Below, one piece after another: positions 404 through 38,477 of a DNA stretch of 39,036 bases; within the stretch, counting starts at the first letter, position 1; the number at the start of each line of letters is the position of its first letter. The stretch covers positions 1-39,036 of IMG/VR virus record IMGVR_UViG_3300044960_000328, one strand, 5' to 3'. The notes beneath the pieces are model-generated. The model saw only the letters and a list, made by a program, of their open reading frames with translations, was not told the DNA's origin and ran no database searches. The DNA comes from a virus. A program made the position numbers and the translations under genes.

Positions 404-1429
404 CTATGAAGCTTTCTGCTCCAGTTTCTTCAGTTTATTGGCAGTCATCTTGGCTGTGTGTTCGCTCATCCCCGCCTTCATGAGACGTGGACGTCCTGGA
501 CGTCTCTTCTCCACCTTCATGATCTCCAGGGCTACCTCCAGTGGATCGTCTCCAGCGTTATAACTGATGGTGGAGATTTCTCCAGTCTCCAGGGTGGAGA
601 TGGAGGATTTCCCTGTACTCTTTTTTCTGGAGGTGGAGGGTGGAGATTTCTTTTCTCCATCTCCAGGGTGGAGGGTGGAGCGGTTCCCACTCTCCAGTTT
701 CTCCACCTCCACATCTCCAGACTTGGCTTCCTCCACCTTCTCCACTTTCTCCACATCCAGACTATGAGCAGGTGGAGATTCCTTCACCTCTTTCGCGCTG
801 GATACATGGAGGTCTCCTGCTTCAATCTCCAGTTTAGGTGGAGAAGATTTCTCCACCTCTCCACGTCCAGTGGATGGGGTCTCCATATCCTCCACATCCA
901 AACTGGAGGATCGGGTGGAGGATGTGGAGGTATCCAGCTTCGTGGTGGAGGTCTCTGCTGGAGATGTGGAGGTTTCTCCACCTTCCTCCACTCCACTACC
1001 GGTATGTAGGATCGCTTTCCCTGCTACCGCCTCCGCGACGATAGCGCACAGGATGATAGCCACCCCGATCACCACCCCGCCACGACCATATTCCAACCCA
1101 TATGAGATATTCGACCAAGCCACGAACGAAGCACCAAGCAGTGTAGCAATTCGTACAGGTGCACCCGGCCGAACACCGATGAAATGAAAGATCATCGTAA
1201 CGAAGGCACCGAGAAAAAACAACGCTTCAAACATGACCACTCCCATATGCGCTTCCCACCCGCTGTAACCGTACTGCTGGAACAGATGGAGCGTATGGAC
1301 GTAAGACAGCACCTGAGCGCAACCGAAGATGACCACACTGAGTAAAACCGTTACCCAGCGCGCGAATGTTTTCGTCTTTCGGTATGAGAAACCCGGGCGG
1401 GTTCTCCCCGCCCGGTGAGTCGTATCCAT
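404..1429 (-). CDS. Four-TM membrane protein with repetitive DNA-binding-like tail
   Basis: The product is about 341 residues. The start is taken as the ATG at 1429, seven bases after AAAGGAGG; an ATG at 1435 is too close to it. The first ~140 residues hold about four hydrophobic segments. Residues ~145-300 are low-complexity Ser/Thr/Glu/Lys/Val (STST, VEKVEKVEE). The C-terminus has RRPGRPRL, an AT-hook-like motif, then a basic helix. The fold resembles SpdB/DUF2637-type membrane proteins of Gram-positive mobile elements, a weak recognition. It is the last gene of the accessory operon. The low-complexity part is encoded by dense TGGAG/CTCCA repeats, described separately. The role may be tethering DNA to the membrane (inference). 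Confidence 0.75.
   Translation of the reverse strand: MDTTHRAGRTRPGFSYRKTKTFARWVTVLLSVVIFGCAQVLSYVHTLHLFQQYGYSGWEAHMGVVMFEALFFLGAFVTMIFHFIGVRPGAPVRIATLLGASFVAWSNISYGLEYGRGGVVIGVAIILCAIVAEAVAGKAILHTGSGVEEGGETSTSPAETSTTKLDTSTSSTRSSSLDVEDMETPSTGRGEVEKSSPPKLEIEAGDLHVSSAKEVKESPPAHSLDVEKVEKVEEAKSGDVEVEKLESGNRSTLHPGDGEKKSPPSTSRKKSTGKSSISTLETGEISTISYNAGDDPLEVALEIMKVEKRRPGRPRLMKAGMSEHTAKMTANKLKKLEQKAS
509..995. repeat. Field of ~40 TGGAG/CTCCA motifs
   Basis: Counting by eye gives 23 CTCCA and 17 TGGAG in under 500 bp, where about one would be expected by chance. Many extend to GGTGGAGA or TCTCCACC. Some pair as palindromes: TGGAGA-TT-TCTCCA at 571-584, and GGTGGAGA-AGATT-TCTCCACC at 837-857. The motifs lie inside the membrane-protein gene but occur in several codon phases on the coding strand (TCC-AC, TCT-CCA and CTC-CA; TG-GAG and T-GGA-GA). 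Confidence 0.9.
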
Positions 1430-1431
1430 GG

Positions 1432-1630
1432 TCATTCCTCCTTTTTCTCATACTTTTCTTCATAATCTGCCAGAAACTCATCAAAATGTTTTTCCATGCA
1501 TTCGTTCGAGCAATAATGATTCGTCCATACTTTTCCTGTTGGAAGGGCAATGGAAAAAGGAATCCACCCCTTTGGGAGGCCGTCATTCCCTTTTTTCAAA
1601 CCCTTACAACCATCGCATCCATAAGGGCAT
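1432..1630 (-). pseudogene. Small zinc-finger protein, N-terminus out of frame
   Basis: One frame encodes a GCDGCKG motif, then LPKGWIPFSIALP, then HYCSNEC and an acidic tail ending EKKEE, stopping at 1432-1434. The two Cys pairs form a treble-clef-like zinc site and the layout matches the intact gene at 36461 (CDFC, PTNW, HYCSWEC). The reading frame is blocked by TGA codons just upstream of GCDGC and has no start before it; a TTG at 1599 would lose the first Cys pair. An ATG at 1628-1630 would give an in-frame start (MPYGCDGCKG) if the CCC after it were CC. So this is a one-base indel, either real or a sequencing error. It overlaps the preceding small ORF. Confidence 0.6.
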
Positions 1631-8699: not shown

Positions 8700-11045
8700 C
8701 TAATCGGATTCATTCTCCCCGCCGCCAAGCACAGGGAATGTCTTCGTCATCGCTGTCGCTCCCGATCCTTCTTTTTTCGATGCATTGTATACCTCGATCC
8801 GTTGCCCTGTGCCGGATGGGAAGAAGGAGACTCGAAGCCGGTAGGAATCGATGGTCACGGTCCCGCCGCTCCGTTTCGCTCGCAATCGAACTACCGCCTG
8901 CCCGGTTCTCCCGCTGACCCCCACATTGGTTACATCGGCGAAAATTTGGTTGGTCAGCGGAATGGTATGAGTCCCTGCCGGATACGCTCGCAACACTTCC
9001 GCCTGTGGGTTGTCCCGCGTCCCCTCCCACGAAAAAGTAGGAGAATTGAGTTGATACAGTTGCGGGATGAAAGCAATTTCGGCTTGCTGTGAGCAGGTAA
9101 AAGTGAGGTAGCCATCACAGGTGAGAATCCCCGGTGCTTTCAAATCGAACCGGTGTTCCATTTGGGTGATGGTACTGTATTTTTGCGACGAAACCGGAAT
9201 CGTCGGTGGCGATACCTCATACAGGAATTGATACCGCGCCGCCAAATCAGCCAGTGTAATGCGCCCATCTTGGAAATCGTTATATTCCTTTTCAGTGATT
9301 TGGACGAGCATATTCCCGTCCACGTATACCGTCCCCGTCCAAGCGACCGTTCGCCCATAAACCAACCGAGCTCCTCCACTCCTTCCTTCGAAAACACCAC
9401 CAGCGCGTACCCAATCCGGGTCGACAGTCGTCTGATTTTCTGTTACGAGCGACAGGTTGTTAAACCCCCCAATATCGTAGAGGTTCATACCGAAATGGCC
9501 ATCTTGCATGTCCGTTACCCGACGATAGAGTAGCCATAACCAGTATGTGCCCGTAGTTAATTCCGGATAGTCGCCGCGAGCGTTCACAATTTGGTTCGCC
9601 GCCACCATTTTCATCGAAGTGGAACCAAACACGGCATAATCATTGCTGAAAGTTCGGGTGGACGAAGTGGCGTGGTTCACTAGGTTGACCGGAACCTGTT
9701 CTCCCGGTGTGCCCTCATAGTTCCCGTCTGCACCGAAAAGACTGCCCCGGGATCGATCATAGATGAACCACTTGGCATATGGATTTTTCAGCACTTCTAC
9801 CTTGCCCCGCGCTGGAATGCGCGCTGCCTGCAGAGTCAGGTTCCCGAACCAATTGGCTGCTCTGGTCATTTCCGCGCTGTCACGGGTTGCCCCAGCGATG
9901 CCGTTCACGAACTCCGGTAGCGCGCTGTTCATCCCGTATTGGTTCGCGGCATGGTTGGTGGCGCTGGGGAGTGTGCTCGTTCCCCATACGATCCGCTCCC
10001 CGTTTTGATACAGGTGCTGAATCACACCTGCATACCGCGAAATGTCCTGTTCGATGAATCGCGGCATGAACAGGACATACTCGGCTGTCACGCTCGAGAT
10101 GGTATGGAAGTCCAGATATGCTACCGCGTCCGAGAACTCACTATACAGAGTATCCAGCGCCTGCGCTTCCGCCTCGGAGAGTGGAGCCGGCCCTTTGTAG
10201 TTGGATTGCCCCGGTTGGTTCTGGGAAAAGTTGTCCCAGTTGTAAGGGAAGTTTCGATTCAGGTCGACTTGGTTTGAATTTTGTCGCGTCTGGTTTGCGT
10301 GCCCCCACGGATTCGCGATAGGCACAGCAATAATTCGAACATTCTTCCGCAAGTAGGAGAGGTGTGGCCATTCCTTCCACCGCCTCACCAACAGGTCTAG
10401 AAACTGATACAGCGCATAGAACCCGGTGTATTCGTTTCCGTGCAAGCAAGCGGTCAGGATGATCGTCTTTTCATAGTTCTGAGGCACAAAATCGTACCGC
10501 CAGATTTCATAGGTGTCCGACGCATCCCGACCAATCGATTGTTTCGATACGTAGTCAGGCGCAACCGTCAACAGCGGATCGATGAGCGCTTGCAACTGCT
10601 CATCAGGATCATAACCCGCCGGGACGGTTCCGTTCCCTCGAATCGTATCCGGAAGGGTAGGAGGTTTCCAAAAAGCGTTGAAGTAGCCGTTCCCGGCTTC
10701 CACCTCCTGCTGAAGGTTGACGATGCTCGTTTTCGTCATCTCCAGCATGCCGTCCGAATCATCCAGCCGCGCCTTCAGCGTAGGAAACGCGAACCCGTCG
10801 GCATTTACTCGCGCCTGCGCTGCTTCTACGGACGAATCCCCTTCTACCACGATGGTGTCAAGCTGGGTTTGCACGCTATCCGCCCGTGTCACCGCCTGCT
10901 GCGCCGTCTGCTTCGCTTCATCTGCTTTTGTCTCTGCCGTCTGGGCGATGGCTTTCGCCTCTGCTGCCTGCCTCTCGGTGTCTGCGATGTCCTGTAATGC
11001 CGCTTTCACGTCACGCCCAATCACATTGTTCCAATTAGTTGACAT
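8700..11045 (-). CDS. Tail fibre with M14 zinc carboxypeptidase domain
   Basis: The 781-aa protein has an N-terminal coiled coil (about 13-115, Ala/Glu/Gln-rich), an M14-like peptidase (about 155-410) and beta-rich C-terminal modules (about 415-781). The peptidase signature is complete: HGNE (H202, E205), LNRN (N263, R264), DFH (H314) and PEF with E378 as the likely catalytic Glu. M14 enzymes remove C-terminal residues or cut gamma-D-Glu peptides; here the target may be peptidoglycan stem peptides or a surface polymer (inference). It lies between Dit and Tal, so it should be on the virion. RBS AGGAGGGTC precedes the start. Confidence 0.9.
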   Translation of the reverse strand: MSTNWNNVIGRDVKAALQDIADTERQAAEAKAIAQTAETKADEAKQTAQQAVTRADSVQTQLDTIVVEGDSSVEAAQARVNADGFAFPTLKARLDDSDGMLEMTKTSIVNLQQEVEAGNGYFNAFWKPPTLPDTIRGNGTVPAGYDPDEQLQALIDPLLTVAPDYVSKQSIGRDASDTYEIWRYDFVPQNYEKTIILTACLHGNEYTGFYALYQFLDLLVRRWKEWPHLSYLRKNVRIIAVPIANPWGHANQTRQNSNQVDLNRNFPYNWDNFSQNQPGQSNYKGPAPLSEAEAQALDTLYSEFSDAVAYLDFHTISSVTAEYVLFMPRFIEQDISRYAGVIQHLYQNGERIVWGTSTLPSATNHAANQYGMNSALPEFVNGIAGATRDSAEMTRAANWFGNLTLQAARIPARGKVEVLKNPYAKWFIYDRSRGSLFGADGNYEGTPGEQVPVNLVNHATSSTRTFSNDYAVFGSTSMKMVAANQIVNARGDYPELTTGTYWLWLLYRRVTDMQDGHFGMNLYDIGGFNNLSLVTENQTTVDPDWVRAGGVFEGRSGGARLVYGRTVAWTGTVYVDGNMLVQITEKEYNDFQDGRITLADLAARYQFLYEVSPPTIPVSSQKYSTITQMEHRFDLKAPGILTCDGYLTFTCSQQAEIAFIPQLYQLNSPTFSWEGTRDNPQAEVLRAYPAGTHTIPLTNQIFADVTNVGVSGRTGQAVVRLRAKRSGGTVTIDSYRLRVSFFPSGTGQRIEVYNASKKEGSGATAMTKTFPVLGGGENESD

Positions 11046-23820: not shown

Positions 23821-24465
23821 TCACCCCGTCATATAGAACATATCGGCCGCCTCTTCCCGCACGGTTTCCACGAACAGATGAAACCGATCATTCCGGCTCC
23901 CCCATCTACCTGCCGCCGTGAAGGTGTCGAACATGGATCGCCTCAACCCATTCGTCAACTCCAACTGCACCCCGCGTCTGGTCAGGGTGTCGTTGCATAT
24001 GTTCGCGGGATCGGTTCCGGCTATGTGCGCGGGTGCAATCTGCGCATCGAATCCCGCCGCAAGCAATGCCGCAATGATCCGGTCGCGCATATATGTGTCC
24101 AACCCACCTACGTAGCAAATTTCCTCGCTGCCTGCTTCGCCGTGAACGCTCAACACCTGCGTCGCCTGCTGGACCATGTATCGGGCTCGTGGCTCATCGA
24201 AATTCGTCGAAGTAATATGCAGATCGCTATTGCTGCCCGGTGCTTTCGTGCCCTCGAACAGATAGAGCGAATGATCCGGGTATGGGTCGGTGGTTCCTTC
24301 TCCAGACAGTCCCCGCGCCAATTCGCTCGTTCCGGTCTCGATGCCGCCTGCATGAATCGCGATGACAGCCAGCCGGGTTTCGATATCGTCGGCGTATATG
24401 CGGTAATCCACTCCCTCGGTCTCGTTCGCCGCCAACTCTGCGTAGTTGGAATACTTATCCGCCAT
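23821..24465 (-). CDS. Poly-gamma-glutamate hydrolase (PghP/DUF867 family)
   Basis: The 214-aa product starts MADKYSNYAELAANETEGVD after TAGGAGGCGGAAAA. It matches the phage PghP/YmaC family, zinc enzymes with a carboxypeptidase-like fold that cut the gamma-glutamyl capsule. Visible residues are IHAGGIE (H38, E43), LSVHGEAG (H108) and LELTNGLR with the likely catalytic E169. There is no signal peptide, so release is probably at lysis, opening the capsule for progeny. Placement just before TerS, not near the lysis genes, is unusual and suggests a later addition to the late operon. Confidence 0.92.
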   Translation of the reverse strand: MADKYSNYAELAANETEGVDYRIYADDIETRLAVIAIHAGGIETGTSELARGLSGEGTTDPYPDHSLYLFEGTKAPGSNSDLHITSTNFDEPRARYMVQQATQVLSVHGEAGSEEICYVGGLDTYMRDRIIAALLAAGFDAQIAPAHIAGTDPANICNDTLTRRGVQLELTNGLRRSMFDTFTAAGRWGSRNDRFHLFVETVREEAADMFYMTG

Positions 24466-24476
24466 TTTTCCGCCTC

Positions 24477-24689
24477 CTATGCTGATTTCCAAGCAACCTT
24501 CGGCTCCGTTCTACGCGCACGCTTCGGGGGCATCCTCGTTTCAATCACCAACCCCGGATACCACCGCGTGCGCCGTTTGTGCATCTCGAAAATAATCAGA
24601 GCGACAAACCCGCCGCCAAAAAACCCGATCACGAAGCAGAAGCACGTCAATACCGCGATGCCCGCTAAATGGATAATCACCCTTTCCAC
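24477..24689 (-). CDS. Single-TM small membrane protein (70 aa)
   Basis: It starts MERVIIHLAGIAVLTCFCFV. Residues ~5-33 are hydrophobic with GFFGGGFVALIIFEM, followed by a basic tail (KRRTRW, PPKRARRTEP), so the tail should be cytoplasmic. It is the second gene of the late operon. Function unknown. Confidence 0.6.
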   Translation of the reverse strand: MERVIIHLAGIAVLTCFCFVIGFFGGGFVALIIFEMHKRRTRWYPGLVIETRMPPKRARRTEPKVAWKSA

Positions 24690-37004: not shown

Positions 37005-37023
37005 CAAAGAGCCCTACACGGGC
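37005..37023. terminator. Terminator of the integrase gene
   Basis: AGCCC-TACAC-GGGCT (about 37009-37023) forms a stem; the minus strand continues CTCTTTGTATT. The integrase stop codon lies in the stem. The plus strand ends in TTTTC, so it is bidirectional. Confidence 0.65.
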
Positions 37024-38477
37024 TTTTCAAACGCGAAGTCAATTTCTATTTCGCCGTCTGGGTGCATGCGGATTTCGTCTATCAATCTCTGGAATGCAGT
37101 ATACAAATCCCGTTCTTGGTCATCCAGCAACTGAAACGCTTCTCGAATGGATCGGACGCTATGCTCGCGATACTCTCGCTTTTCCAAAACGAACATTTCG
37201 TCGCGTATATGTTCTAGTTGCTCGTCGATCTCCTGCCGCTTCTCCTCAAACTCCACCTTGCTTATGAGCTGATCCAAATATAAGTCCACCAATTGCTTTT
37301 TCCGGGTTTCTGCCTGCTCATGCTTCTTTCGCAACTGTAAAAGTTCGTTCTGCTTCCGTTCCTCAAAATCGCTCACGAAATCCAAAGCGACCGATCGGCC
37401 TTTTTCCCTCAAATGATTAAGTATGACTTCCCGGAAATCCTCATACAGGATCGGAACATGGTTGACGCACCCACCACCACGTCGATATTGGCTACACTTC
37501 ATGTAGTCGAAACTCTTCTTTTTCCCGCTGGCAAGCTTCTTTGGCGATTGCCATATGATCATATTGGAACCACAGCGAGAGCATTTGACCAAACCTCGGA
37601 ACTCATTCTTGGGCGTGATCTTGCTCCTGTTCCCTTTCCACTCTTTTGTATTCGCCTGCCGCCATACCTCGCGGGATACAATCGCTGGGTGGTGGTCTTT
37701 GAAAAAAATCCACTTTTCCCGTGGGTTGCGAATCTGTTTCCGTCGCCCTTCTGATTTCACCTTAGTAAACTGGTTCATGATGAAATCGCCGCAATAGATC
37801 GGATTATTTATAAGCCGTTTCACACTGGTGATTTGCCACCTACTAATGTGCTTGGGCTTAATACCCTGGGCGTTTAGCTGGCTGGTGATCCGCTTGTACC
37901 CCCAGCCCTGGTTATACCAGCCATATATTTGTCGGACTACCTCCGCCTCTTCTTCGTTTATAATCAGAAACCCATCTACCTTGTCGTAGCCGTACGGGGT
38001 CCGACCAATGTGTTCCCCCCGTCGTACCTTCGCCGCCAAAGCCGCCGAAACGCCGGAGGAAAGTGTCCGGCTGTACTGAGCGGAAAAGAGTGACCAGAGC
38101 TCGAAAGCCATGTCGTTCTTCCCCGCCTTATGACTGTCGTAGCCCTCTTCTACAGAGATGATCCGAACATTGTGCGCAATAAGCACCTCCCGGATTTCCA
38201 ATGAATCCTTCAAGTCCCGCGCTAGACGGCTGATAGATTTGAAAACAACCGTCTGGATTTCCTTTTTCTTCGCCTTCTCCAGAATTAGCTGGATCGCTGG
38301 TCGTTCAAGAAAAAGGGTTCCGCTGATGCCTTCGTCTTTATAGACGTTGTTCTCGTCCCAGCCGTAGCCGTTCCGCTCCAACCAGTTCCGGCATATGTCG
38401 ATCTGGTTTTCCACCGACGATATCTGTTCATCTCGGTCTGTCGATACTCGTACATATACGGCATATTCAGTATTCAT
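37014..38477 (-). CDS. int: Large serine recombinase integrase
   Basis: The 487-aa integrase inserts the phage DNA without a host factor. The resolvase domain is at about 4-150: YVRVST with catalytic S12, DEGISGT, and KSISRLARD. A recombinase domain follows (about 155-265: IGRTPYGYDK...RITSQLNAQGIKP...INNPIYCGD). A zinc ribbon comes next (CSRCGSNM...CSQYRRGGGC), then a long coiled coil (about 385-455). RBS CGGAGGGCAAT. Excision requires a directionality factor, possibly the HTH protein at 4150. Confidence 0.95.
   Translation of the reverse strand: MNTEYAVYVRVSTDRDEQISSVENQIDICRNWLERNGYGWDENNVYKDEGISGTLFLERPAIQLILEKAKKKEIQTVVFKSISRLARDLKDSLEIREVLIAHNVRIISVEEGYDSHKAGKNDMAFELWSLFSAQYSRTLSSGVSAALAAKVRRGEHIGRTPYGYDKVDGFLIINEEEAEVVRQIYGWYNQGWGYKRITSQLNAQGIKPKHISRWQITSVKRLINNPIYCGDFIMNQFTKVKSEGRRKQIRNPREKWIFFKDHHPAIVSREVWRQANTKEWKGNRSKITPKNEFRGLVKCSRCGSNMIIWQSPKKLASGKKKSFDYMKCSQYRRGGGCVNHVPILYEDFREVILNHLREKGRSVALDFVSDFEERKQNELLQLRKKHEQAETRKKQLVDLYLDQLISKVEFEEKRQEIDEQLEHIRDEMFVLEKREYREHSVRSIREAFQLLDDQERDLYTAFQRLIDEIRMHPDGEIEIDFAFEKPV

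Follow-up and report, generated by a model that had tools for sequence, protein, structure and literature searches.

The Streptomyces SpdB2/Spd proteins (pSVH1, pIJ101, and SLP2) are integral membrane proteins that bind dsDNA and have been linked to intramycelial spread and plasmid stability (PMC4170104, excerpted text; cited therein, Tiffert 2007; Hsu & Chen 2010). The gene family analyzed here is like SpdB2/Spd in that it encodes a membrane protein of mobile elements in mycelial hosts, for which DNA binding is predicted. Unlike this family, SpdB2 is reported to bind DNA non-specifically, an array in its own gene is not described in the excerpted text of that source, and pIJ101 SpdB has no detectable homology to the family. 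According to the same excerpts, SpdA2/sps of pIJ101 comprises a DNA-binding protein and a site inside its own coding region, which affects segregational stability. The predicted site of the family is likewise located inside its own coding region; however, the SpdA2/sps site is a 12-bp palindrome that occurs once or a few times, while the family carries 20-57 copies of a 5-6-bp word, and membrane anchoring of SpdA2 is not described in these excerpts, whereas the family protein has a membrane part. Streptomyces TraB recognizes 8-bp repeats (TRS) at clt (PMC4170104, excerpted text), which is similar to the family in that short repeated words serve, for the family by prediction, as a handle for DNA at the membrane, but its reader is an FtsK-like translocase, and none was found among the window proteins scanned.

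Two further systems are comparable in part. The omega/parS system of pSM19035 consists of many non-palindromic 7-bp heptads in either orientation and has a ParA partner (PMC9499535). It is resembled by ParA-linked ribbon-helix-helix (RHH)-like genes near some relatives of the window gene, but omega is an RHH protein with sites overlapping promoters, whereas the family arrays are in coding DNA. In phage lambda, the origin lies within gene O and contains four 19-bp iterons for replication initiation (PMC4488673). Sites for a gene's own product inside its own coding sequence are the shared feature, predicted in the case of the family, while the gene O product has no membrane part, unlike the family protein, and its sites serve replication initiation.

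Window gene and carrier phage

The window, i.e., the whole stretch of DNA analyzed (39,036 nucleotides), is a 39-kb IMG/VR virus record. Its carrier is a temperate, siphovirus-like phage encoding terminase, an SPP1/A118-type portal, tape measure, and a Prophage_tail protein, as well as a DnaB helicase and a Cro/C1-like repressor. The window gene is located at the record end, beyond the lysis genes. The features discussed below are as follows.

404..1435, minus strand: window gene, 343 aa; its translation and homologues of the same layout indicate a four-helix membrane domain, a disordered tail, and a C-terminal HTH
998..1435, minus strand: N-terminal membrane domain (residues 1-146), DUF2637-like in alignment, with the SxxH, F, and SN hallmarks
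509-995, both orientations: CTCCA/TGGAG array, 40 copies, within the tail-coding part (about 533-997) and extending from there into the DNA that codes for the HTH
407..532, minus strand: C-terminal winged-HTH-like domain (...KRRPGRPRLMKAGMSEHTAKMTANKLKKLEQKAS), the proposed array reader according to alignment, Pfam hits in relatives, and motif covariation
37014..38477, minus strand: carrier-phage gene for a large serine recombinase, with Pfam matches to Resolvase (1.6e-28) and Recombinase (3.8e-25), the context being an integrating temperate phage

Neither a ParA nor an FtsK-like protein, including the FtsK-like TraB of clt conjugation, was found among the window proteins scanned, whose genes are those of phage head, tail, lysis, recombinase, and helicase. 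The window also encodes a poly-gamma-glutamate hydrolase (23821-24492, Pfam E 1e-59), which is a possible depolymerase for a PGA-coated host, and a zinc carboxypeptidase (M14) domain is present in a tail-module protein (8700-11045).

The first-pass annotation had suggested a likeness to partition or conjugation (clt/SpdB-like) systems. A likeness in kind to Streptomyces Spd/clt is plausible, but formal SpdB/DUF2637 membership was not obtained. The Pfam DUF2637 profile (PF10935) matched the window protein with 10-11 bits (E 0.37-0.7) and did not reach the curated cut-off of 22.8 bits, and weak matches were obtained in 6 of 20 relatives (best E 0.0014). A search of three carrier genomes with this profile returned no match, but none was returned in the controls either, so it says nothing on absence. 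With a single pIJ101 SpdB sequence as the partner, hhalign detected no homology (probability of 0.8% and E of 0.07, aligned over 19 columns).

The tail of the window protein is rich in V, E, S, and T. For the C-terminal domain, HTH_36-, GntR-, and MarR-like Pfam hits were found in family members, the HTH profile gave a weak CRP-like wHTH match and nothing else against the PDB, and single-sequence AlphaFold of the window C-terminus produced a low-information model (pTM 0.29). The GRPR residues, which had been read as an AT-hook-like end, are instead the N-terminal edge of the winged-HTH-like domain; the same position is occupied by PGRP, PSIR, TVR, or PSQR in relatives, and the R-G-R-P minor-groove core of the AT-hook is not conserved there across the relatives.

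Short-word arrays in the window gene and its relatives

The roughly 40 copies noted earlier at 509-995 amount to exactly 40 (23 CTCCA and 17 TGGAG), and CTCCA forms the top 5-mer cluster in the window, which holds 152 CTCCA/TGGAG in total versus 84 ± 10 in dinucleotide shuffles. Across the whole gene there are 42 copies, with 38 in the tail (465 bp), one in the membrane part, and three in the HTH part. When synonymous codons were permuted with amino acids and codon counts fixed (2000 shuffles), the gene contained a mean of 13.0 copies (s.d. 2.7, maximum 22). The earlier observation that copies fall in different codon phases also holds, since all three phases and both strands are occupied: on the coding strand, TGGAG occurs in phase 1 (16) and phase 2 (8), and CTCCA in phase 0 (3), phase 1 (4), and phase 2 (11), and the motif is accordingly translated as V/L/M-E, x-G-E/D, L-H, S-P, or S-S/T. 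The copies have near-random flanking bases and are irregularly spaced, with a median of 9 bp, exact repeats reach at most 16 bp, and no tandem array was reported at this position by Tandem Repeats Finder, so the array is not a tandem duplication. From the shuffle test, the phases, both strands, the random flanks, and the irregular spacing, the motif excess is a property of the DNA, and the window array is not a protein repeat. The palindromic pairs pointed out at 571-584 and 837-857 are real, but such pairs are expected from 40 sites in both orientations. A Shine-Dalgarno-like GGAG was ruled out as the cause of TGGAG, because arrays occur in both orientations and words lacking GGAG are used by relatives.

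Direct searches with the window protein gave no matches in IMG/VR or the phage collection. The sole lead was a 26% match to a gene on a 32-kb plasmid of Laceyella sacchari, which opened up the family. This 391-aa family gene lies downstream of a ParA gene, and its tail DNA is dense in CGAACA (35 copies in the gene), occurring in all three frames as T/I-E-Q, R-T, and S/P-N. A profile built from these two membrane parts detected relatives in 22 of 399 Bacilli genomes, all belonging to one order, in which they make up 22 of 42 genomes; an improved profile found no relatives in the 397 other Bacillota genomes sampled. The order is probably Thermoactinomycetales, as suggested by the Laceyella member and by its plasmid, which is partially similar in DNA to genomes from the order. 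Thermoactinomyces and relatives show branched, septate mycelial growth (PMC7840651).

All family members possess the four-helix membrane part with the S..H, F, and SN hallmarks, which is DUF2637-like below threshold, and most have a disordered tail of variable length followed by a short winged-HTH-like C-terminal domain. A 535-aa member without the usual HTH (L113:9612-11219) has a C-terminal part that by eye resembles a T5orf172/GIY-YIG-type domain. A GIY-YIG endonuclease (L116:4487-5185) with the family's kind of HTH (YPSIRKLAEIAGCARYKAEKAL) adjoins another member. The family genes of L102 and L115 contain stops or changes of frame, reflecting either pseudogenes or errors in sequencing, and L115 retains its CACCAG array. 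In the literature searched, beyond which most subscription papers lie, no description of the family or of own-gene arrays this dense was found.

A tail array of one short word is present in 24 of the 38 family genes, each above all same-protein shuffles (z ≥ 3.9). The same test flagged 17 of 254 other ORFs, mostly near the threshold, and about seven of these either shadow or extend the same arrays or are an RHH gene that carries an array. Among the 14 family genes without a clear tail array, three have a 3' array instead, and the remainder showed none in the flanks examined (up to about 9 kb each side). The CTCCA word is shared by the window gene, L085, L093, L106, L110, and L114, while words of other genes include CTCCC, CACCAG, CTGGA/TCCAG, CGGTAG, CGTACC, CGACCA, CAGCCA, CAAACA, CGAACA, TGAACA, CGGACA, and CTCACA. 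The words are thus gene-specific yet of a common shape, about NNN[A/C]CA. The tail-coding part holds most copies, and the membrane part, the HTH part, and the flanks hold few each. For example, CGGTAG in L101 occurs 17 times in the tail, never in the membrane or HTH parts, and once in the 16.8 kb outside, and the corresponding numbers for tail versus outside are 26 versus 1 in L116 and 11 versus 1 in L115. Co-resident family members in one genome mostly differ in word, although chance sharing is also low and exclusivity is not claimed.

The arrays also extend into non-coding DNA. Past its stop codon, L106 has a further 478 bp of the CTCCA array (29 copies) without a convincing ORF. The tails of L090 and L091 lack a word, and an approximately 900-bp GGTGG array (94 and 105 copies) directly follows the gene on its 3' side; L103 also has a 3' GGTGG array, at a contig end. 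These cases show that the array is a DNA element. The tails of the window protein and L085 (155 versus 93 aa) are 53% identical where aligned, while motif density is 8.2 versus 7.9 per 100 bp. The comparison of homologues proposed earlier therefore shows that the motif persists when the amino acids change, and the suggested selection at the DNA level is borne out, because the motif outlasts amino acid change, the word varies among relatives, and arrays reach non-coding DNA. An AACATT array near L104 was rejected as a family array and is an unrelated CRISPR array (L104:1425-2154, repeat GTTTAAATACATCTCATGTTAATGTTCAAC), about 7 kb from the family member.

Covariation of array word and C-terminal domain

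Similarity of the HTH was correlated with similarity of the word given the membrane part (partial Mantel r 0.51, P 0.0002, 21 genes, phylogeny ignored), whereas the membrane part was not correlated with the word given the HTH (r 0.05, P 0.26, 21 genes). The word count for this test left out the HTH-coding DNA and its neighbourhood, a looser version was also run, and the HTH-word correlation persisted without the closest relative.

At the level of single residues, alignment column 22 is associated with the third base from the word end, which is C in genes with Arg (12) or Gln (1) and A in those with Ile, Val, or Tyr (6). This rule is followed in 19 of 19 genes, with a family-wise P of 0.0013 from a permutation that ignores phylogeny, in a small sample with motifs anchored by eye. 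Such pairing makes chemical sense, in that Arg would suit a G-C pair and an aliphatic or aromatic residue an A-T pair. C at the fifth base is associated with Glu/Asp in column 33 and Lys/Arg in column 37 (P 0.003). L107 and L119 have distant membrane parts, yet share PSIR and K-A-[DE]-K together with CGGACA, and L111, which the tests did not include, shows this pairing as well (PSIR...SKYKAEK with a CGGACA array). RENHA and CACCAG are common to L092 and L115, while L089 (PGR HTH, CAACAG) is an exception to the column 22 rule. The earlier proposal that the C-terminus reads the repeat gains support from this covariation, from which we strongly infer that the HTH binds the word, CTCCA in the window gene, and that its specificity has diversified together with the array.

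Proposed membrane tether and alternative functions

On the sequence comparisons above, the window gene appears somewhat more probably than otherwise to encode a membrane-anchored DNA-binding protein whose tail-coding stretch is the cognate array and which tethers the DNA of its element to the membrane. The HTH end would bind the array word inside its own gene, and many protein copies along the array would tether the DNA of the mobile element to the membrane, a step that is plausible. The tether would be a centromere-like or clt-like handle that positions, segregates, or spreads the element through the septate mycelium. Since nearly any amino acid sequence can serve as a disordered linker, the tail-coding stretch would be a free site to house the array.

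The wider proposal, to which we give about an even chance, is that these genes represent a new class of self-encoded DNA handle on mobile elements of mycelial Bacilli, phages and phage-plasmids among them, in which the disordered linker is coded by its own dense word array, and word and HTH co-diversify by a residue-to-base code, so that every element would have a tether private to it for segregation or mycelial spread. If true, selection would act on one DNA stretch in two roles, as coding sequence and as an array of 20-57 protein-binding sites, with many unrelated words, and mycelial Bacilli might have solved in their own way the problem, known from Streptomyces, of how plasmids and phages move through septate filaments. 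The residue-to-base pattern would allow HTH specificity to be predicted from sequence, and repetitive disordered tails on mobile elements may reflect centromere-like sites rather than features of the protein.

It is unlikely that the array, although a site for its own HTH, serves roadblock or silencing of its own gene and not tethering. Sites inside or just 3' of the family gene itself are consistent with such autoregulation, but their number, together with a conserved membrane anchor, exceeds a repressor's needs, and the non-coding arrays lie 3' of the gene and not at its promoter.

The arrays of several relatives sit in partition-like neighbourhoods, while that of the window phage does not. 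At ten relatives, a ParA gene is located at most 2.6 kb upstream of the family gene, and an RHH-like (ParB-like) gene lies between them with its own array of other words. Such candidates with in-gene arrays were found at L092:10548-11174, L105:10136-10675, L109:6430-7035, and L116:7030-8001; the arrays (TACAGG, AAAACC, AACCAG, and ACCAG) are in the disordered N-terminal part and are weaker than those of the main family. This arrangement, together with the recognition of clt repeats by TraB (PMC4170104, excerpted text), would fit a clt/TRS-like or centromere array read mainly by a ParA/ParB pair, an FtsK-like translocase, or a host factor. We regard such a reader as quite unlikely, because the word covaries with the gene's own HTH beyond the membrane part and residue by base, the array of the neighbouring gene is built of different words, and the window proteins scanned include neither ParA nor an FtsK-like protein. 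Partition is also not obvious for the window phage, given its integrase and the lack of a ParA among those proteins.

Compared with tethering by the gene's own HTH, neutral expansion of a short word by non-triplet steps in a freely evolving linker, without any role for the DNA itself, is improbable. Tails are disordered and variable in length, and tandem expansion is visible in the arrays of L109 and L112, as such expansion would predict; however, the copies occur in both orientations and all frames with near-random flanks and irregular spacing, density is constant despite tail turnover, the word is matched to HTH residues, and arrays also occur in non-coding DNA. Finally, selection for charged V-E/S-T-rich tails, which could yield the word through codon bias given the V/E/S/T-rich window tail, is highly improbable for the family and refuted for the window, where same-protein, same-codon shuffles give 13 copies and not 42, and L031/L093 have the same CTCCA word in an amino acid context unlike that of the window.
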